A stretch of 35,207 bases of DNA from Gammaproteobacteria bacterium (GTDB taxonomy: Bacteria; Pseudomonadota; Gammaproteobacteria; Enterobacterales; Alteromonadaceae). A program made the position numbers and the translations under genes. Positions 22,036-31,804 of the stretch are shown piece after piece. Position 1 is the stretch's first letter; every line of letters begins with the position of its first letter. The notes under the pieces were generated by a model. The model searched no databases, was not told where the DNA came from, and saw nothing but the letters and a program-made list of their open reading frames with translations. The stretch spans positions 1 through 35,207 of the forward strand of contig JAHIWM010000151.1 in the NCBI GenBank assembly GCA_018815765.1. Reading direction: 5' to 3'.

Positions 22036-22896
22036 ATGATCCACAGTATGACCGCTTATGCCCGCCACGAAATTCGTGCCAGCTGGGGCAATGCCGTTTG
22101 GGAAATCCGCTCCGTTAACCAACGTTATCTGGAAAGCTATTTCCGCCTGCCAGAACAGTTTCGTTGCTTAGAAGGTTTATTACGCGACAAACTGCGGCAG
22201 AAACTGCACCGCGGCAAACTGGAAATCAACCTGAAATACAGCGCGTCGAACACTGCTGGTGAGTTAAAAATTAACGAAGCTTTGGCCAAACAACTGATGC
22301 AAAGCGCAAGCGTATTAGCCGAGCAAAGCGGCAAAGCCCAACTGAACGTGGTTGATATTCTGCGCTGGCCTGGTGTGATGGAAACTCAGGAAGAAGACAT
22401 CGACAGCTTACAAGCCGAACTGATGGCCGCCTTTGACGCCGCCTTAGTCGACTTTGTCGCAGGCCGCGGCCGTGAAGGCGTAGCGATAGAGCATATGATC
22501 CGCGACCGTCTGGATCAAATCTCCATTCATGTCAGCACCTTACGCACCCATTTACCACAAGCCCTGCAATGGCAACGCGACAAAATGCTCAACCGCCTGC
22601 AAGAAGTAAAAGCCGAACTAGACCAAAACCGCCTCGAGCAGGAAATGGCCTTTTTAGCCCAGAAATCTGACGTGGCAGAAGAGCTGGACCGTTTAGACGC
22701 TCATATCAAAGAAACCCGCCACAGCCTAAAACAAGGCGGAGCCATAGGCCGCCGCCTCGATTTTATGATGCAAGAATTCAACCGCGAAGCGAACACCTTA
22801 TCCTCTAAAGCCATCTCAACCGAGATCACCAATACAGCGGTGGAGCTTAAAGTTTTAATCGAACAGATGCGGGAACAAATTCAAAATATCGAATAA
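22036..22896 (+). CDS. yicC: YicC family endoribonuclease
   Basis: 286 aa; MIHSMTAYARHEI...IEQMREQIQNIE; divergent from rph-pyrE. Confidence 0.95.
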   Translation: MIHSMTAYARHEIRASWGNAVWEIRSVNQRYLESYFRLPEQFRCLEGLLRDKLRQKLHRGKLEINLKYSASNTAGELKINEALAKQLMQSASVLAEQSGKAQLNVVDILRWPGVMETQEEDIDSLQAELMAAFDAALVDFVAGRGREGVAIEHMIRDRLDQISIHVSTLRTHLPQALQWQRDKMLNRLQEVKAELDQNRLEQEMAFLAQKSDVAEELDRLDAHIKETRHSLKQGGAIGRRLDFMMQEFNREANTLSSKAISTEITNTAVELKVLIEQMREQIQNIE

Positions 22897-22902
22897 AATC
22901 AA
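22876..22902. repeat. Putative att-like core, left copy (3' end of yicC)
   Basis: CAAATTCAAAATATCGAATAAAATCAA; 24/27 match to 26563-26589. Confidence 0.65.
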
Positions 22903-23010
22903 TTGCTTATAATAAACCTCTACTCATGAAGCTAGTTAAAGTCTTTGCTTGGTCTTAGCTCAAGCAAAGACCCTTTCTGGCAGTACATTGAAAAATGCTT
23001 TATGTCATAC
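22891..23010. repeat. Direct repeat R1 with internal inverted repeat GTCTTTGCTTG/CAAGCAAAGAC
   Basis: AATAAAATCAATT...CTACTCATGAAGCT-GTTAAAGTCTTTGCTTG-TCTTAGCTCAAGCAAAGACC-TTTCTGGCAGT shared with 24711-24832. Confidence 0.9.
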
Positions 23011-23246
23011 CCTCAACATAGCATTGAGTTTTCCACCTCAAACGTCTGTCACAGATGCAATTCATCTTACTAGTCTCTACGACGTTAGGGTTATTTCAAG
23101 CAATGTTTTATCCTCTCTACTAATCAACGATTTACAAAAAATTAGAATTAAGTACTCCTCTGAATCACTTATTAATACTGGATAAAATTTCATTTAACTG
23201 TCGTATTTTTGCTTATGCTACAACTATGATAAACGGGAGATATCAG

Positions 23247-23651
23247 ATGACGATACAAGACAGAATACAAACCAGAGTGAAGCGCTCTAAGCGTTCTGTT
23301 TTTCTACGTTCTGATTTTACTGATATCGCTGATTATGATCAGGTTGGCCGTGGGCTCAGAAGCCTGGTACGCGAAGGCTTGCTGTTGAAAATTGGCTACG
23401 GCCTGTATGTACGCGCCAGAATCAATCGTATTACCGGCCAGCTAATGCCTGACAACCCTGCAGGTAACGATGGGGTAATGATTGAGGCCATGGAAAGGTT
23501 AGGTGTTGATTATCAACTTGATGATCTGTCTCTAAAAAATTTGTCGGGCGAAAGTACTCAAATTCCAGCAAACGTTAAGATTATTCCTAAGAGTTCACGC
23601 TTTACCCGCAAGATTGCGGTAGGGAAACAGCGTGTCAACGAAGTTCGATAG
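23247..23651 (+). CDS. DUF6088/AbiEi-like type IV toxin-antitoxin antitoxin
   Basis: Winged-helix N-terminus RSDFTDIADYDQVGRGLRSLVREGLLLKIGYGLYVRARINRITGQLMPD; RFTRKIAVGKQRV near the C-terminus. Confidence 0.65.
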   Translation: MTIQDRIQTRVKRSKRSVFLRSDFTDIADYDQVGRGLRSLVREGLLLKIGYGLYVRARINRITGQLMPDNPAGNDGVMIEAMERLGVDYQLDDLSLKNLSGESTQIPANVKIIPKSSRFTRKIAVGKQRVNEVR

Positions 23652-23792
23652 CTCACTTTTTGTCGATGTTGCGAATGCTTTAGGGCTTGGCAAAGCAAAA
23701 AACAGTTGGTAGCGTCAGTTATTGCGCTGAATGAATATAGATACTTCGGCTTTGACAGCTTCAAGATGGAAATCCCTGCATTGATACGTTAG
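23632..23792 (+). pseudogene. Truncated/frameshifted remnant of the partner gene (possible AbiEii-like nucleotidyltransferase toxin)
   Basis: GTG start overlapping the DUF6088 gene reads (M)STKFDSSLFVDVANALGLGKAKNSW*; the next frame continues KKQLVASVIALNEYRYFGFDSFKMEIPALIR*; no room for a catalytic domain. Confidence 0.5.
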
Positions 23793-23819
23793 AATCCAAC
23801 TAAAGTCAGGGGGTAATCT

Positions 23820-23978
23820 ATGTCAAAAACAGCGACCAAAACTACCGATGAACGCAAGGCTAAATTTTCCCCTAATATGGAAAATTATAAGGTTAGCCTG
23901 AGTTACGAAGGGCTGTCTTTGAAAAAAAGCAGCGAACATAAATCTATTGCAGACTTAAAACGTCAATATGCGCGATAA
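23820..23978 (+). CDS. Small YhfG-like Fic antitoxin
   Basis: 52 aa (below ORF cutoff): MSKTATKTTDERKAKFSPNMENYKVSLSYEGLSLKKSSEHKSIADLKRQYAR; SD CAGGGGG; overlaps the fic start by 11 nt. Confidence 0.65.
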   Translation: MSKTATKTTDERKAKFSPNMENYKVSLSYEGLSLKKSSEHKSIADLKRQYAR

Positions 23979-24561
23979 GTATGGCGTAGAACACGACAGC
24001 TACTGCTACCCAGGTTCAGATGTCTTAATTAACCTGTTAAATATCAAAAATCCGCAAGAACTTGCCGAAGCAGAAACCGAGTTTAGTGCAGAGCGCTACA
24101 GAACCTACGAATCCGGGCAACTTTCACCGCAAGACTTCTCGTTCGAACATTTACAGCATCTGCATCACCATCTTTTTCAAGACTTGTACGAATGGGCGGG
24201 TAAAGTAAGAGAAGTTGATATCTCAAAAGGAGCTACCAGGTTTTGCACTTGCACTCGAATCGAACCTGAGGCAAGAAAGCTATTTGCCACAATCCCTGCC
24301 TTGGTTAACCTTAATAATGAGCATGATTTAATTACCAAGGTAGCCGATTTATACTGCGAAATGAATATTTTGCATCCGTTCCGGGAAGGCAACGGCCGTG
24401 TTCAGCGGTTCTTTTTTGAAGAACTGCTTTTTACACTAGGCTATGAATTACGATGGCCACAAATTTCCAAAGAAACATGGATTGACGCCAATATCGCTGG
24501 CTATGATCTTAATCTTGAACCACTAAAAGCAATATTCTCTCAAGCAATCATCAGGCGCTAG
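23968..24561 (+). CDS. fic: Fic family protein (class I, E. coli Fic-like) with intact HPFREGNGR motif
   Basis: 197 aa; MNILHPFREGNGRVQRFFFEELL; DSYCYPGSDVLINLLNIKNPQEL resembles E. coli Fic N-terminus. Confidence 0.9.
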   Translation: MRDKYGVEHDSYCYPGSDVLINLLNIKNPQELAEAETEFSAERYRTYESGQLSPQDFSFEHLQHLHHHLFQDLYEWAGKVREVDISKGATRFCTCTRIEPEARKLFATIPALVNLNNEHDLITKVADLYCEMNILHPFREGNGRVQRFFFEELLFTLGYELRWPQISKETWIDANIAGYDLNLEPLKAIFSQAIIRR

Positions 24562-24632
24562 AACAAAGCCAGTATCGCAGTTAATTATCTGGTTATTGGT
24601 CTTTTAGAGCGATAAATTCAGCAGCACACAAA

Positions 24633-24655
24633 TGGCGGGTAAAGTGGTGGGTAAA
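24633..24655. repeat. Tandem TGGCGGGTAAA / TGGTGGGTAAA
   Basis: Two 11-mers with 1 mismatch, 12 bp period, just before repeat R2. Confidence 0.6.
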
Positions 24656-24710
24656 ATGAAAAAACCACCATCGACTTTAAGATTAAATAATTAATTTAAA
24701 ACAACTTATA

Positions 24711-24832
24711 AAATAAAATCAATTACTTAGAATAAAACCCTACTCATGAAGCTGGTTAAAGTCTTTGCTTGATCTTAGCTCAAGCAAAGACCGTTTCTGG
24801 CAGTCCATCGCAAAATATTTTACTTCATAGCC
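24711..24832. repeat. Direct repeat R2 (second copy of the 22891-23010 repeat)
   Basis: Same internal inverted repeat GTCTTTGCTTG (24761-71) / CAAGCAAAGAC (24781-91). Confidence 0.9.
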
Positions 24833-24850
24833 CCAGCCTCCCAGCTCAAG

Positions 24851-24962
24851 TGTCCTTATTCAAAAGGAAATAGAGACAAACCACTAAAAATGTCCTTATC
24901 AGCTTGATTTATGTCCTTATAGCGATTAAGTTTAGAGACAATTATTCTATTTTTGTCCTTAT
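24851..24962 (+). promoter_or_regulatory. Operator array: four direct TGTCCTTAT boxes upstream of wHTH-Fic gene
   Basis: Exact copies at 24851, 24891, 24912, 24954; spacings 40, 21, 42 bp. Confidence 0.8.
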
Positions 24963-24966
24963 CTAC

Positions 24967-26388
24967 ATGACTAAAGAGAGCTTAATACAGCAAGAAAAAG
25001 CATGCATTTTATTGTTTCTAGAGCAACTAGGCTCGCCTGCGCGCTTAGGAGAGATAGAAAAAAAACTATCTATATCAATAAATAAAAAAACTCTGCAACG
25101 TCGAATGAAAGACTTGCAGGCTGACGGTTACGTGAGCACTGAAGGTGAAAAAAGAAATACCAAATACTATGTAAATAAGGACAAAAACGTTTTAAAAAAT
25201 GTCTCTAAAGACTCTGATAAGGACAGCGCCAGCCAGGGTATACAGACAAATAACGAAAACAAAGACTCGCATCCCATCTTTTCAAATGCTGCCATGTCTC
25301 AACTTAGTTATTTAGACACCCCTTCTTATGCGCGTAAGAAGTCTAGCTATCAGTTCGCCCTGGTTGATGACTACATTCCTAATCAAACACACTATGTCCC
25401 AAAACCAATGCGGGCGCGGCTTCTTGAGGCTGGAAAGCGGTTTGATCACAAAGTGGCTGCCGGGACTTATGCAAAAAATATTAGTCAAAAACTGTTAATT
25501 GATTTGTCTTACAACTCTAGCCGACTAGAGGGCAACACCTACTCAAAACTTGATACTCAGCGCTTGCTTGAGCAAGGGCTGTCTGCCGAAGGCAAAGTGC
25601 ACGAAGAAACCGTGATGATTATGAATCACAAAGAAGCTATCGGGTTCTTGATCGAGAATGCCGAAGAAATTGCCCTCAACGCTTTTACAATCCGAAATAT
25701 TCATGCCCTCCTGTCACAAGACCTATTAGCCAACGCTGCTGCCTGTGGCAATGTCAGGCGGATTGAAGTCACTATTGGAAAATCAGCTTATTTGCCGCTA
25801 AATAACCCACATCAACTGGAAGAATATTTAGCGCTACTGCTGCGAAAAGCAGCACAAATTAGTGATCCGTTTGAACAGAGCTTTTTCTTATTGATCCATT
25901 TATCTTATTTGCAAGCTTTTGAGGATGTGAATAAGCGAACAGCTCGCCTCTCCTGCAATATCCCATTTATTCAGCACAACTTGTGCCCATTAAGTTTTAT
26001 TGATGTACCACAGGAAGATTATTTTAAGTCATTACTGTTTTTCTACGAAACAAATGAGCTGCAACCTGCATTAGAACTCTTTGAGTGGGCTTATCTACGC
26101 TCATGTCAGCAGTACGATGTTGTCAAAGAATCACTTGGAGAAATTGATGCATACAGAGTGCAGCACAGAGCGGCACGAAAGTTTGCGATGGGCCATATTA
26201 TTCGTCAAAACCTCGATGAGCGCTCAGCGACTCAGTATCTCGAACAATACTGTGCAGACAATAGCATTCCCTCTGCTGACAAATTTGTAAGCATGGCACT
26301 GAGTGATTTAGAACAACTCCACACCGGTTCAATCATTGGACTGGGTATTACTGAGAAGATGTTTACGGAGTGGAAGAAACAGCGTTAA
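24967..26388 (+). CDS. Winged-HTH Fic-fold protein with His-less (QAFEDVNKRTAR) active-site loop and SxxxEGN inhibitory helix motif
   Basis: Start at MTKESLIQQEK; N-terminal wHTH LGEIEKKLSISINKKTLQRRMKDLQADGYVST; SSRLEGN motif; LLIHLSYLQAFEDVNKRTARLSCNIPFI. Confidence 0.85.
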   Translation: MTKESLIQQEKACILLFLEQLGSPARLGEIEKKLSISINKKTLQRRMKDLQADGYVSTEGEKRNTKYYVNKDKNVLKNVSKDSDKDSASQGIQTNNENKDSHPIFSNAAMSQLSYLDTPSYARKKSSYQFALVDDYIPNQTHYVPKPMRARLLEAGKRFDHKVAAGTYAKNISQKLLIDLSYNSSRLEGNTYSKLDTQRLLEQGLSAEGKVHEETVMIMNHKEAIGFLIENAEEIALNAFTIRNIHALLSQDLLANAAACGNVRRIEVTIGKSAYLPLNNPHQLEEYLALLLRKAAQISDPFEQSFFLLIHLSYLQAFEDVNKRTARLSCNIPFIQHNLCPLSFIDVPQEDYFKSLLFFYETNELQPALELFEWAYLRSCQQYDVVKESLGEIDAYRVQHRAARKFAMGHIIRQNLDERSATQYLEQYCADNSIPSADKFVSMALSDLEQLHTGSIIGLGITEKMFTEWKKQR

Positions 26389-26562
26389 AAGCTGATTTCT
26401 TTAGTGTCATTTCAATTGGGTTTCGTACTCAAATGAACATTGAATAAATGAGGGAAATGGTAATCACCATTTGTCATTTTGGTGACCAAAGTGGCGGTTT
26501 TGATAAGATTAAAGCAACGTAACCGTTTGAAACTTAAATAATTACAACAGCCATTCTCATGG

Positions 26563-26589
26563 CAGATCCAAAATATTGAATAAAATCAA
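26563..26589. repeat. Putative att-like core, right copy (vestige of yicC C-terminus QIQNIE*)
   Basis: CAGATCCAAAATATTGAATAAAATCAA encodes QIQNIE-stop, with three synonymous differences from yicC. Confidence 0.65.
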
Positions 26590-26597
26590 AAAATTAA

Positions 26598-26629
26598 AAC
26601 ACCCTGCATTTACGTAAATACAGGGTGTT
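26598..26629 (-). terminator. Terminator of the helicase gene (long imperfect palindrome)
   Basis: AACACCCTG C ATTTAC/GTAAAT A CAGGGTGTT; followed on the minus strand by TTTAATTTTTTGATTTTA. Confidence 0.8.
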
Positions 26630-26653
26630 GTAGTTTATAACAGCCCTACCATT

Positions 26654-29600
26654 TTACCCTACAGCTAATTTCGCCGCTTGTTGCCACATAAAGCTCGGCA
26701 TAGGCGACTGAAGCTTCCAGGTAATGCTCATGGGTTGTGAGCCAGTGTGTGATACATATTCAACTTCACCATAGTTAACAAAGCCCATAGTGCGACCATA
26801 TTCATCGGCGGTTTGCTCACGAACAAATAAGAAAATCCTCTTGCCCGTCATTTTATGCTTTAGATAATCCAAACCTCGACCACGATCTGGACGCGCGCTA
26901 TTTTGGGACTGCCAATGAAACAGCGATTCATTAATGGCGTAATCGTGATACATGGTCGTCGGAGAAAATTGTTTTTCGCTCTTATTTAAAGTGACAAATA
27001 ACAGCTCAATATTTTGGTCTTGAATAACATAAACCCCTTCCCTCGCAGGAGGTTGTCGCTCGAAAGTTATGGCTCCAAAACCAGTTAATATTTGCTCACG
27101 TGTATAGCGGGCATGAAGTCGTAGTGGCACTTCTGGTAAACCTGCCAAAGCTAACTGTTCATGCTTAGTCCGCGCGATTTGCCACTCCAAAACGTCGAGC
27201 AACTCATTTCTAAGAGATAGGCAGTTTAAAGCCTTTAAACTTTGCTCAAGTGTTTCAAAACCTACGGCAGAACCCGGCTTTTGCCAAAAGTCGTAATGAC
27301 ACATTAGCGCCAACCGTTGGTTCTGACAGCCTTCAACAACAAAATGGTGCGAGACGAGCTTTTTCAGGAATACCAAATAGTGATAGTCGTCACAGGCCAA
27401 AATCCTGAGTTTGATAGCCCGTTTGTATACTTCAACCAATACATCATCGGTATCTGTTTCTCTGACCTCATCAAATGAACGCGAGACTAATTCGCCCCAC
27501 CCACCCCGTTGATATAAATCACGGATACCAATATGTGGATGTAATTTCAGGAAATTACCAAGGGTTAATGGCAATTCGAAAGAATGAGGGTATTGCCTGA
27601 TAAGTCCGACTAACCTGTTACTCGTCAGTGTCGCCTGACGAATATTATTTAGGACGATCTCTTGCGTGATCTTCGATAGCTCAATGCGACAGCCAAGTGG
27701 TGCGTGCGGGAAACCTTGTTTAATTTCGTCGCTAATCCCTTTATTTGTTTTACCAATCAGCGCACGGAATTTATTGGAAAAATCATATTCAGCTCGTGAA
27801 TTACCAACAAAATCCAATACAGTACAACACTCTTTGTCATCGGCTAGACGCAAGCCACGCCCCAGTTGTTGCAGGAAAATAGTCAAACTTTCGGTAGGTC
27901 GTAGCAATAACAATGTATCAATTTCTGGAATATCTACACCTTCGTTAAAGATATCAACCACACATAGCACATTGATTGAGCCTGATCGGATTGCCTGCTG
28001 CTTTTGCTGCCGCTCATGACTGTTATCACTGATCAATACGTCACTTTTGATACCTTTGAGCAAAAATTGTTTGCACATATACATGGCGTGCTCACGACTC
28101 ACACAAAAGGCGAGTGCTTTCATGCAGCCGATATCTGTGATGATTTGCTGCATGCTTTGCAAAATCTTATTTACGCGGCTTTGATTATGAGTGTAAAGAT
28201 TGCTTAGCTGCGAAATATCATAGCGGCCACGATTCCAACTAATGCTCCGGAGATCCGTATCATCATCAATACCAAAATACTGAAATGGGCAGAGATGCCG
28301 GCGGTTGATCGCTTCTGGCAATCGCATTTCCGCAGCAATGACACCACAAAAATCATCTAAAATATTTGCGCCGTCATGACGTTCCGGCGTAGCAGTCAAT
28401 CCTAATAGGATTTTAGGCCGGAAGTAATCAAGCACTGCACGGTAGCTATTAGCAGCGATATGATGCACTTCATCAATCACCAGATAGTCATAAAAGTCTG
28501 CCGACAATTTCATAGTGGCTAATTGATTATTCAGCGTCTGGATCGACACAAATAGCTGATGGTGATGCTCAGGCCTGTAGCCACCCACCCACAATTCACC
28601 AAACTGACTGCGTTTCAATACACCACGATAAGCCATTCGAGCTTGTATTAAGATCTCTTCTTTATGCGCAATAAACAAAAACTTGGCGTCTGGTTTTTCT
28701 TTGATAAAACGGGCGAAATCAAATGCGGAAATTAAAGTCTTGCCTGTGCCGGTTGCTGCGACCACTAAATTACGGAACCTATTGTGAATTTGTCGCTCGA
28801 TACTAAGTTGTTCCAAAATCTCGAGTTGGTGTGGAAAGGGCTTTAGATCGAAATAATGCTGATGATCCTCGCTAACACTACCTCGGGCAGCCTTTAAAGC
28901 TAACTTGAGCTTCTCACGACTCTCTACTTGACCGTCAAATAGTTCAAACTCACTGGATTGCCAATAGGTTTCAAAAGTGTTCAGTGACTTATCAATAATA
29001 TGTGGAATTTCCTGCGATGTGATTTTCAGATTCCACTCAAGGCCATTCGTCAGTGCAGAGTGCGATAGATTGGATGAACCAATGTATCCTGTGTGGAAAC
29101 CGGTATGGCGTAAAAATAGATAACTTTTGGCATGTAGCCGCTCACGTTCAGTGTTGTAGCTCAGTTTCACTTCAGTGTTAGGTAAGCTTGCCAGATACTC
29201 AACCGCCTTAGCATCTGTAGCTCCCATATAAGACGTGGTAATAATTTTCAACTCACGGCCACTACGAGCAAAGGATTCCAACTCGTTGCGAAATACCCGA
29301 ATACCAGTCCACTTGATAAAAGACACCAGCCAGTAAATTTTATCTGCTGACAAAATCTCACGTTTTAGCTCAGATTCAAGCGATAAACCTGCATTGCTAC
29401 CGCAAAACAACTCGCTTTCAGTTAAACCTGTAAGTGGAAAAATATCCTCAACGTATTTCTTTAAATCAGCAGCTATTGGATTATCCAGCGTGTACAACGC
29501 TGTTAGAATCTTTCCTCTACTACTTAGTAAGTTTTCTTCAATAAAACCATCATCTTGAATTTTATCCTTCAGCCACATCAGCATCTGGTTAGCGAGCTCA

Positions 29601-29797
29601 ATTTGCAGCTGTAACTGATCCTCACCCGTTGGAACTGCGGCTATAGCAAATTCCATAATTTTACTGAGAAAGCGGGACAACCAAACTGAGGCCTCATTAG
29701 AAGACAGCTCTCGCTCACCGACGTAAAATCGTGTTCGATCCAAGTTCCGTTCAACCAACTGAGTGATCAATTGCTCATAAAGGCCAATTTGCTGCAT
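26654..29797 (-). CDS. PLD-like nuclease domain + DEAD/DEAH (SF2) helicase + DUF3427 protein
   Basis: 1047 aa; PLD HxK motif HAKSYLFLRHTGFHTGYIGSSNLSHSAL; Walker A VVAATGTGKT; DEVH box; LTATPERHDG; QQLGRGLRLADD; C-terminal DUF3427-like region. Confidence 0.88.
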   Translation of the reverse strand: MQQIGLYEQLITQLVERNLDRTRFYVGERELSSNEASVWLSRFLSKIMEFAIAAVPTGEDQLQLQIELANQMLMWLKDKIQDDGFIEENLLSSRGKILTALYTLDNPIAADLKKYVEDIFPLTGLTESELFCGSNAGLSLESELKREILSADKIYWLVSFIKWTGIRVFRNELESFARSGRELKIITTSYMGATDAKAVEYLASLPNTEVKLSYNTERERLHAKSYLFLRHTGFHTGYIGSSNLSHSALTNGLEWNLKITSQEIPHIIDKSLNTFETYWQSSEFELFDGQVESREKLKLALKAARGSVSEDHQHYFDLKPFPHQLEILEQLSIERQIHNRFRNLVVAATGTGKTLISAFDFARFIKEKPDAKFLFIAHKEEILIQARMAYRGVLKRSQFGELWVGGYRPEHHHQLFVSIQTLNNQLATMKLSADFYDYLVIDEVHHIAANSYRAVLDYFRPKILLGLTATPERHDGANILDDFCGVIAAEMRLPEAINRRHLCPFQYFGIDDDTDLRSISWNRGRYDISQLSNLYTHNQSRVNKILQSMQQIITDIGCMKALAFCVSREHAMYMCKQFLLKGIKSDVLISDNSHERQQKQQAIRSGSINVLCVVDIFNEGVDIPEIDTLLLLRPTESLTIFLQQLGRGLRLADDKECCTVLDFVGNSRAEYDFSNKFRALIGKTNKGISDEIKQGFPHAPLGCRIELSKITQEIVLNNIRQATLTSNRLVGLIRQYPHSFELPLTLGNFLKLHPHIGIRDLYQRGGWGELVSRSFDEVRETDTDDVLVEVYKRAIKLRILACDDYHYLVFLKKLVSHHFVVEGCQNQRLALMCHYDFWQKPGSAVGFETLEQSLKALNCLSLRNELLDVLEWQIARTKHEQLALAGLPEVPLRLHARYTREQILTGFGAITFERQPPAREGVYVIQDQNIELLFVTLNKSEKQFSPTTMYHDYAINESLFHWQSQNSARPDRGRGLDYLKHKMTGKRIFLFVREQTADEYGRTMGFVNYGEVEYVSHTGSQPMSITWKLQSPMPSFMWQQAAKLAVG

Positions 29798-29999
29798 TAA
29801 AAAATCCTTTTCATTCCGGTGGTGGCGCAGTGAATGCTCTGTATAACGATTTGGGGGTTAGCAAGTTGTGCCAGGATATCGTACTAGCAGCTGTACCGTA
29901 AAATAATAGCGACTGATGCGACATAAAAAACGGCTTGGCGTTCAGTCGATGTACGATCCAAACCTGCGGATAATAAAGCACTAGACAACGATTCATGGT

Positions 30000-30057
30000 T
30001 TTATAAGCATCATCAATCAGTTGCATCTGATCTACCGCGTCGCGGTCACCTGTCAGC
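30000..30057 (-). pseudogene. Duplicated 3'-end fragment of the Gfo/Idh/MocA oxidoreductase gene
   Basis: 53/58 nt match to 32002-32059; encodes LTGDRDAVDQMQLIDDAYK vs LTGGRDAIDQMQLIDDAYK. Confidence 0.85.
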
Positions 30058-30093
30058 AATTTGATGATTTACAGCTCAAAATCGGATCAAAAG

Positions 30094-30235
30094 GAAACTA
30101 TAGTTTCACAATCAAGCAGAAAAGGTAATTTTAGTTTCACATCAATTCAGTTAAGGATATCGATTTGTCACTTTGCTTAAAGTTAAAAATGAAACTATAA
30201 TTTCACCAAATGCTGATTAGAGAAAATATAGTTTC
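30094..30235. promoter_or_regulatory. hipB operator array: four GAAACTATAGTTTC-type palindromes
   Basis: 30094-30107 (perfect palindrome), 30125-30138 (11/14), 30191-30204 (13/14), 30222-30235 (13/14). Confidence 0.8.
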
Positions 30236-30238
30236 ACT

Positions 30239-30553
30239 ATGAATACTATCGAATCAAAAACAAAGCGCACCGCTGTCGTTTTCCCAAAACACAAAAAGGT
30301 GTTAAGTATCTTGGGTGAAAACTTAACGCTGGCGATGAAGCGGCGCGGCATTACCCAAGACATGATGCACAGCAGAACAGGGTTGTCTAAACCGACGCTA
30401 CGAAAAATCTTAAAGGGTGATCCTTCTGTTTCGCTTGGCCACTACGTCAACGTATTAGCCTGCCTCGGCCTGGTGGACGACCTAACTAAAGTTGCCTTTG
30501 ATGACGAGCTGGGAAGAAAGCTGCAAGACATCCAATTGCTGAACAAAAAATAA
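30239..30553 (+). CDS. hipB: HipB-like XRE-family antitoxin
   Basis: 104 aa HTH ENLTLAMKRRGITQDMMHSRTGLSKPTLRKILKGDPSVSLGHYVNVLACLGL; precedes hipA by 12 nt. Confidence 0.82.
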   Translation: MNTIESKTKRTAVVFPKHKKVLSILGENLTLAMKRRGITQDMMHSRTGLSKPTLRKILKGDPSVSLGHYVNVLACLGLVDDLTKVAFDDELGRKLQDIQLLNKK

Positions 30554-30565
30554 GAGCGCCAGATT

Positions 30566-31804
30566 ATGGAAATCTACGTTTACGCTGATTGGACTGAGTC
30601 AACTGACCCTATATTGGTCGGTACTTTACGCTCCTCAGAAATTAGAGGCAAAGAGCATTTCAGCTTTAGTTATGATGATAAGTGGCTGGCCTCTGACTAT
30701 GTTCGCCAGCTCGATCCCTCTCTAAAGTTATTCATTGGAGAGCAACATGCGCAGGGCGATAAAAACTTCAAAACATTTCTCGACTCATGCCCTGATCGTT
30801 GGGGACGGTTGCTGATGCAACGCAGAGAAGCGGTGATCGCCCGACAAGAGAAGCGACGAGCAAGAAGTCTGTATGAAACAGATTACTTGCTGGGTGTTCA
30901 TGATTCATTTCGCATGGGCGCACTGCGCTTTCGCACATCGCCAACAGGTCCATTTTTAGACGATAGCCATGAGCTGTCTGCACCCGCAATAACCAGCCTA
31001 CCCGAGCTGCAACACGCCGCACATAAAATAGAAGAAACTCCAGATTTAGATCATCCAGATTATCTAAAATGGCTCAATATGCTGATCTCTCCAGGTTCAT
31101 CCTTAGGTGGTGCCAGGCCAAAGGCGTCAATCAGAAATCATGATAACAGTTTGTGGTTGGCCAAGTTCCCCAGTCGTCATGACGATTACGATATTGGCTT
31201 ATGGGAGTTCATTGTTTACCAAATGGCCATTGAGTCAGGCATCGAAATGGCAGAGTCCAAAGTTGAAGCAATTGGCAGTCATCATATTTTTCTAACAAAA
31301 AGGTTCGACCGCACCGAGTCTGGCAAGCGGCTTCACTTCAGTTCTGCAATGACTCAGCTTGAGTACTTTGATGGTCAGGATGATGGTGCAAGTTACTTAG
31401 AACTGGCTGAGTTTCTGATACAGCACGGCTCCAACACTCAGCAAGACCTTGAACAACTTTGGACAAGAATGCTGTTTAACATCATGGTCTCTAATTGTGA
31501 TGATCATCTGAGAAATCACGGATTCATTCTGGAGCCCACAGGCTGGCGACTATCTCCCGCCTACGATATCAACCCCATGTTATACGCCACTGGCTTACAC
31601 CTTAATATTGATGATGTGAGTAACTCGCTCTTGGTAGAGTTAGCATTTGACGTTGCGGAGTATTTTCACGTTAACGCTAGTAAAGCAAAGGCTATCCACC
31701 AAAGATTGTTAAAGGCCGTCTCAAAGTGGGAAAGCCTTGCCCAACAAGCTGGTATCCGCAAAGAAGAAAGAGAGCTATTGAGGGGCTGCTTTATACTCGA
31801 TTAG
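30566..31804 (+). CDS. hipA: HipA-family serine/threonine kinase toxin
   Basis: 412 aa; PGSSLGGARPKA loop, FLTKRFDR, NIMVSNCDDHLRNHGFIL, LSPAYDINP. Confidence 0.88.
   Translation: MEIYVYADWTESTDPILVGTLRSSEIRGKEHFSFSYDDKWLASDYVRQLDPSLKLFIGEQHAQGDKNFKTFLDSCPDRWGRLLMQRREAVIARQEKRRARSLYETDYLLGVHDSFRMGALRFRTSPTGPFLDDSHELSAPAITSLPELQHAAHKIEETPDLDHPDYLKWLNMLISPGSSLGGARPKASIRNHDNSLWLAKFPSRHDDYDIGLWEFIVYQMAIESGIEMAESKVEAIGSHHIFLTKRFDRTESGKRLHFSSAMTQLEYFDGQDDGASYLELAEFLIQHGSNTQQDLEQLWTRMLFNIMVSNCDDHLRNHGFILEPTGWRLSPAYDINPMLYATGLHLNIDDVSNSLLVELAFDVAEYFHVNASKAKAIHQRLLKAVSKWESLAQQAGIRKEERELLRGCFILD

Follow-up and report, generated by a model that had tools for sequence, protein, structure and literature searches.

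CccR from Yersinia pseudotuberculosis, a protein that joins a Fic domain to a helix-turn-helix (HTH) domain, is an autorepressor that acts through two 10-bp inverted repeats of its own promoter, as DNase footprints and reporter assays showed (PMC9755527). DNA binding by CbFic2 has been studied on random DNA, and none has been shown for SoFic (PMC10628234). Clade D2 of the Fic/Doc proteins (Khater and Mohanty, 2015) comprises 45 usually single-domain sequences with the motif Qx[F/Y]x[D/E][G/V]NKR, and its authors speculate on a residual activity of these proteins, in which Gln stands for the catalytic His (PMC4454073). Here we analyze a stretch of 35,207 nucleotides from a gammaproteobacterium of the Alteromonadaceae (GenBank assembly GCA_018815765.1, contig JAHIWM010000151.1, positions 1 to 35,207, forward strand), referred to as the window. 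It carries a gene for a winged helix-turn-helix (wHTH) protein with a Fic domain that lacks the catalytic histidine (wHTH-pseudoFic), and short repeated boxes lie around the start of this gene. The boxes very probably form the operator array of the gene that they surround and are bound by its own winged helix, negative autoregulation being the most likely outcome.

Results

A preliminary description of the window had listed six exact copies of the 9-mer TGTCCTTAT, spaced by 40, 21, and 42 bp upstream of the gene and by 42 bp for an internal pair, together with the related boxes TTTAGAGACA (box 5) and TGTCTCTAAA (box 8). All of these copies, strands, spacings, and related boxes agree with the sequence. 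A third related box, ATAGAGACA (box 2), had not been listed and brings the total to nine, six exact and three related (TGTCTCTAT/AAA; form TGTCTCTA(T/AA); Table 1). Across the 4.1 Mb of the genome, which its nearest named relative assigns to Rheinheimera, TGTCCTTAT occurs 24 times without mismatch, 6 times at the wHTH-pseudoFic locus and 18 times at scattered sites. Because the scattered copies predict 0.0016 copies per 375 bp, the probability of finding at least six in such a segment is ~3e-20, and the clustering is indeed far above chance, as had been stated. The motif TGTCYYTA forms three inverted pairs (24851/24878, 24912/24940, and 25200/25225) and four direct pairs at the locus, and a genome-wide search found convergent or direct box pairs nowhere else. 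Other targets of the array were sought in the genome and in 4-kb flanks, and none was convincing. Orthologues with 95-97% identity and a nearly identical wHTH keep the boxes; substitutions affected 1 of 48 orthologue columns within boxes and 12 of 78 within spacers (p = 0.017). A 15-bp near-perfect inverted repeat with a 1-nt loop and no T-run (GTCTTTGCTTGATCT/AGCTCAAGCAAAGAC, 24761-24791) lies 5' of the array and is largely conserved in three orthologues.

Arrays of this kind were then counted in 101 non-redundant homologues from Pseudomonadota, Chlamydiota, Verrucomicrobiota, Bacteroidota, Myxococcota, and other groups (loci are denoted by L numbers). An array was defined as at least three TGKCnnnn boxes differing from each other by at most one mismatch at -160 to +15; this anchored count replaced an unconstrained ranking of 8-mers per locus, which was too noisy in AT-rich promoters. 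Arrays were present in 79 of the 101 homologues (~79%); the six control segments, each of the same length, yielded 0-6%. The box word is TGTCCTTA in the clade of the window, and other clades use TGTCGCGA, TGGCGCGA, TGGCGCAA, TGTCGCAA, TGGCGCAGTT, TGGCACGA, and more. Family-wide, box density amounted to 25.6 per kb in the promoter compared with 0.75 per kb outside promoter and gene. Boxes were densest at -100 to -20, with the nearest one often 4-25 bp from the start codon. Same-strand spacings followed a period of 10.45 bp, i.e. one turn of DNA, with a Rayleigh power of 113, compared with at most 10.7 among 300 random placements, and with distance peaks at 20-22, 31, 40-42, and 62 bp, so that the ~21-bp phasing proposed for the window holds for the family. 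Convergent pairs were mostly offset by 14-16 bp. The arrays go with the gene across many phyla and on plasmids.

Some loci deserve separate mention. Two Algicola loci (L014 and L102) carry ~40-bp tandem repeats 5' of the wHTH-Fic gene, each with an inverted pair of TGTCGCGA; these arrays have grown by unit duplication. Locus L139 has an unusually long array of at least 15 TGGCGYAA boxes across ~400 bp, mostly in steps of 18-20 bp. A genome of the same genus as the window (G001) encodes two paralogues (L011 and L028), one with TGTCCTTAT and the other with TGGCGCAGTT as its box, a difference that would fit insulated self-regulation. Upstream of a distant canonical HPF Fic gene (L026, 340 aa) lie four similar TGKC boxes, perhaps a CccR-like self-operator.

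It had been proposed that the winged helix of the protein binds the boxes of its own gene, and co-evolution of box and wHTH in homologues had been named as a check. The winged helix was modeled confidently by AlphaFold2, with helices at residues 3-21, 27-33, and 40-52 and wing strands at 56-59 and 66-69; the recognition helix is that of residues 40-52, which includes Gln44 and Arg45. Among 317 alignment columns, residue 45 was the one best tied to the TGKC core of the box (p = 1e-6; next column, 5e-4). The core was found in 80 of 93 homologues with Arg45 and in none of the 8 with another residue. Phased arrays persist at the loci with Tyr45 or Phe45, but these boxes keep CGCAA and lose the leading TG, G at box position 2 dropping from 66% to 17%. 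Homologues fetched later were held out: all four with Tyr45 had AnnCGCAA boxes and no TGKC arrays, and those with Arg45 had arrays of varying strength. Changes of residue 44 coincided with loss of GC at box positions 5-6 (4/4, p = 0.0014), an association that ties with one column of the Fic domain; three further cases without Gln44 occur in the later set. Covariation at box positions 3, 5, 6, 7, and 8 was inseparable from shared descent, so we restrict the claim to residue 45 and, more weakly, residue 44. Arg45 would read TG at box positions 1-2, and Gln44 probably reads positions 5-6. Among distant homologues, a different recognition helix goes with a different box, and the array stands at its own gene only. 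The proposal is thus supported, and the array is most likely bound by the product of its gene.

The Fic part of the protein was modeled as a Fic fold (mean pLDDT of 88.8) and matches FICD, SoFic, and CbFic2. A PF02661 score of 37.8 bits, above the gathering score of 24, assigns it to the Fic/DOC fold. The FIC motif reads QAFEDVNKRTAR (Q316-A-F-E-D-V-N-K-R-T-A-R) where HxFx(D/E)GN(G/K)R is expected, and the motif of a catalytic Fic AMP transferase is thus absent. Gln replaces the catalytic His in 101/101 homologues, and the G of GN(G/K) is mostly V. N-terminal to the Fic domain lies an inhibitory motif, S184xxxE188GN, in which Ser184, Glu188, Gly189, and Asn190 are invariant in the 101 homologues; with (S/T)xxxE(G/N) preceding the FIC motif, the protein is by sequence a class II Fic protein. 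The domain retains the inhibitory Glu, the phosphate-binding Arg, and the nucleotide-contact residues of active relatives, and the general base is gone. It is probably a dimerization and/or nucleotide-sensing module and not an AMP transferase.

Table 1. Positions of the boxes, the gene, and the domains of the encoded protein in the window
Feature	Position	Strand	Evidence
Box 1, TGTCCTTAT	24851..24859	+	Exact match; kept in three 95-97% orthologues
Box 2, TGTCTCTAT, related form, convergent with box 1	24870..24878	-	Pair found genome-wide only here
Box 3, TGTCCTTAT	24891..24899	+	Exact match; one base differs in orthologue L012
Box 4, TGTCCTTAT, 21 bp past box 3	24912..24920	+	Exact match; orthologue comparison
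Box 5, TGTCTCTAAA, convergent with box 4	24931..24940	-	Orthologue comparison; genome pair search
Box 6, TGTCCTTAT, start 13 bp 5' of ATG	24954..24962	+	Exact match; orthologue comparison
Box 7, intragenic, TGTCCTTAT	25175..25183	-	Exact match; codon position +209 shared by L035, L036, L154
Box 8, intragenic, TGTCTCTAAA	25200..25209	+	Genome pair search; codon-shuffle analysis
Box 9, intragenic, TGTCCTTAT, convergent with box 8	25217..25225	-	Exact match; genome pair search
wHTH-pseudoFic gene, 473 aa (P0001)	24967..26388	+	Open reading frame, PF02661 profile, AlphaFold2 model
Winged-helix domain, residues 1-74	24967..25188	+	AlphaFold2 models; PadR/LmrR- and AspA-like folds
Disordered linker, residues 74-100, pLDDT <50, carrying boxes 8 and 9	25186..25266	+	AlphaFold2
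Fic domain, residues 237-331	25675..25959	+	PF02661

The gene order in the window is yicC, an AbiEi-like gene, a canonical Fic gene, wHTH-pseudoFic, a type IV restriction-like gene, and HipBA. The region after yicC (22036-31804) resembles a defense hotspot, with a type IV restriction-like helicase at 26654-29797 and HipB/HipA at 30239-31804, and the site is defense-rich. An AbiEi/DUF6088-like gene followed by the canonical Fic gene (HPFREGNGRVQR, VbhT/PRK10347-like) occupies 23226-24561; these two are possibly a separate regulator/toxin-like pair. In R. faecalis (L034), the wHTH-pseudoFic gene directly follows a 286-aa open reading frame of yicC size, and HsdR adjoins. Integrase/recombinase, conjugation, or other plasmid genes adjoin it at plasmid loci. 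A constant companion or defense gene was sought in the plasmid loci and in the flanks of close homologues without yielding a consistent neighbor; annotated plasmid loci and these flanks share no common partner gene of the kind that a type II toxin-antitoxin (FicTA) system would have. The annotated phage set gave only partial matches of <60% identity.

Alternative explanations

Intragenic boxes are limited to the subclade of the window (the Lys41 clade, 17 rows), their positions vary between subgroups, and locus L155 (66% identity, altered box) is without them. They translate as NKDK, NVSK, and DKDS in or beside the disordered linker and might thus be a by-product of its Lys/Asp-rich composition instead of sites. 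Synonymous codons were therefore shuffled within each gene with the amino acids fixed (1000 shuffles). The segment from +120 to +360 contained 30 boxes compared with 5.1 ± 2.0 after shuffling (maximum of 11), the 30 boxes not being independent because the rows are related and the box pattern was picked from the same clade. The Fic part, treated likewise, had 4 boxes where 5.9 were expected, and locus L013 retained its boxes despite a different linker peptide. Origin as a by-product is quite improbable in view of these counts. Because the boxes exceed what the protein sequence predicts, they seem to have been selected as sites in the linker-coding DNA. An effect at the RNA level would demand that the start-codon box pair with an intragenic inverted copy (+201 to +219) and hide the start codon in the mRNA. 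The arms of 19 nt are 95% complementary, and such pairing is predicted in L009, L012, L035, and L036, but neither in L037 nor in L038. Moreover, the subgroup of L013, L115, L041, and L116 is without a start-codon box, most arrays of the family are without intragenic boxes, and the 10.45-bp phasing and the covariation with Arg45 would be left unexplained. We regard RNA pairing as a very unlikely basis of the array; in the closest relatives it could be additional to DNA binding.

Several points weigh against self-binding with repression. Residue 45 changed independently just four or five times, with five contrasting pairs on the best tree; two of the contrasts lie on well-supported branches, nearly all run as expected and none runs against expectation, and so small a number cannot give a significant sign test. 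For the remaining positions of the box, some of the columns with the strongest association fall in the Fic domain, a pattern that shared descent alone would produce. About 20% of the homologues fall short of three boxes, some of them with weak or other arrays, and start codons of homologues were set mechanically. A different regulator might bind the boxes and control the gene, with the wHTH of the protein working elsewhere. We consider this improbable: box identity tracks the recognition helix encoded by the gene itself, chiefly residue 45, no second locus of the genome has box pairs, and gene and array are found together in many phyla as well as on plasmids. The sign of regulation is deduced from box position and precedent. 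A scan of the locus for promoters and terminators found no promoter, and the repression reading accordingly draws on the position of the boxes and on CccR. The protein could instead activate its own or a divergent promoter. This is unlikely, because the densest boxes at -100 to -20 and the short distance of the nearest one to the start codon suit occlusion, and no array faces a divergent gene.

Discussion

Self-binding by the wHTH-pseudoFic protein can be pictured as follows. The protein would bind the boxes cooperatively via its N-terminal winged helix. Because the spacings correspond to whole helical turns, several molecules would occupy one face of the DNA, arranged as direct repeats and convergent pairs. 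Binding most likely would shut off transcription of the gene, since the boxes reach to within ~13 bp of the start codon. In the subclade of the window, the boxes in linker DNA may extend the complex or loop to the promoter. We offer only tentatively the idea that sensing of a nucleotide or another ligand by the dead Fic domain switches the wHTH on and off the phased array, with its own gene as sole target. If true, the protein would be a self-contained one-component sensor module, widespread and located in mobile and defense-rich regions.

A large group of genes whose sole annotation is "Fic family protein" thereby gains a testable role as DNA-binding regulators, with specific base-residue contacts predicted. 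The family provides a set of naturally matched helix/box pairs in which winged-helix specificity and the cooperativity of binding can be studied, sites within coding sequence among them, and it raises the question of the purpose of a Fic domain without catalytic histidine.

The nearest folds of the isolated wHTH are PadR/LmrR winged helices and the centromere-binding protein AspA (E-values of 1e-3 and weaker), which, unlike the protein studied here, are without a Fic domain. Profiles of the phage-defense candidates PADLOC PDC-S04 and SoFic match only partially and in the Fic part alone, and we found no defense test of the wHTH-pseudoFic family in the literature. Clade D2 shares the His-to-Gln change and the NKR motif, and QAFEDVNKR fits its consensus; the available part of that work describes no winged helix or operator for the clade, whereas the present family has a wHTH (PMC4454073). 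Three distant Q-type Fic genes, with 24-26% identity in the Fic part only, had no array. CbFic2 and SoFic (SO_4266) combine a Fic fold with a winged HTH, both matched by our structure model, but they are active enzymes with a C-terminal wHTH, CbFic2 with an HPF motif (PMC10628234). CccR likewise unites Fic and HTH in one protein and has a class II inhibitory helix; it differs in that its HTH is C-terminal and its catalytic His is present and needed for toxicity. For CccR, two repeats with a 26-bp spacer and no intragenic sites are described in the accessible part of the report, compared with a multi-box, partly intragenic array in the window (PMC9755527). The N-terminal position of the wHTH (residues 1-74) departs from the order of the CccR/SoFic type. 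Neither the boxes nor this order of wHTH and Fic domain was found described in the open-access literature, and the wHTH-pseudoFic proteins are apparently a large, undescribed family. Autorepression by a Fic-HTH protein is already known from CccR; new are a histidine-less Fic family with an N-terminal wHTH and its helically phased multi-box arrays, some of them intragenic.
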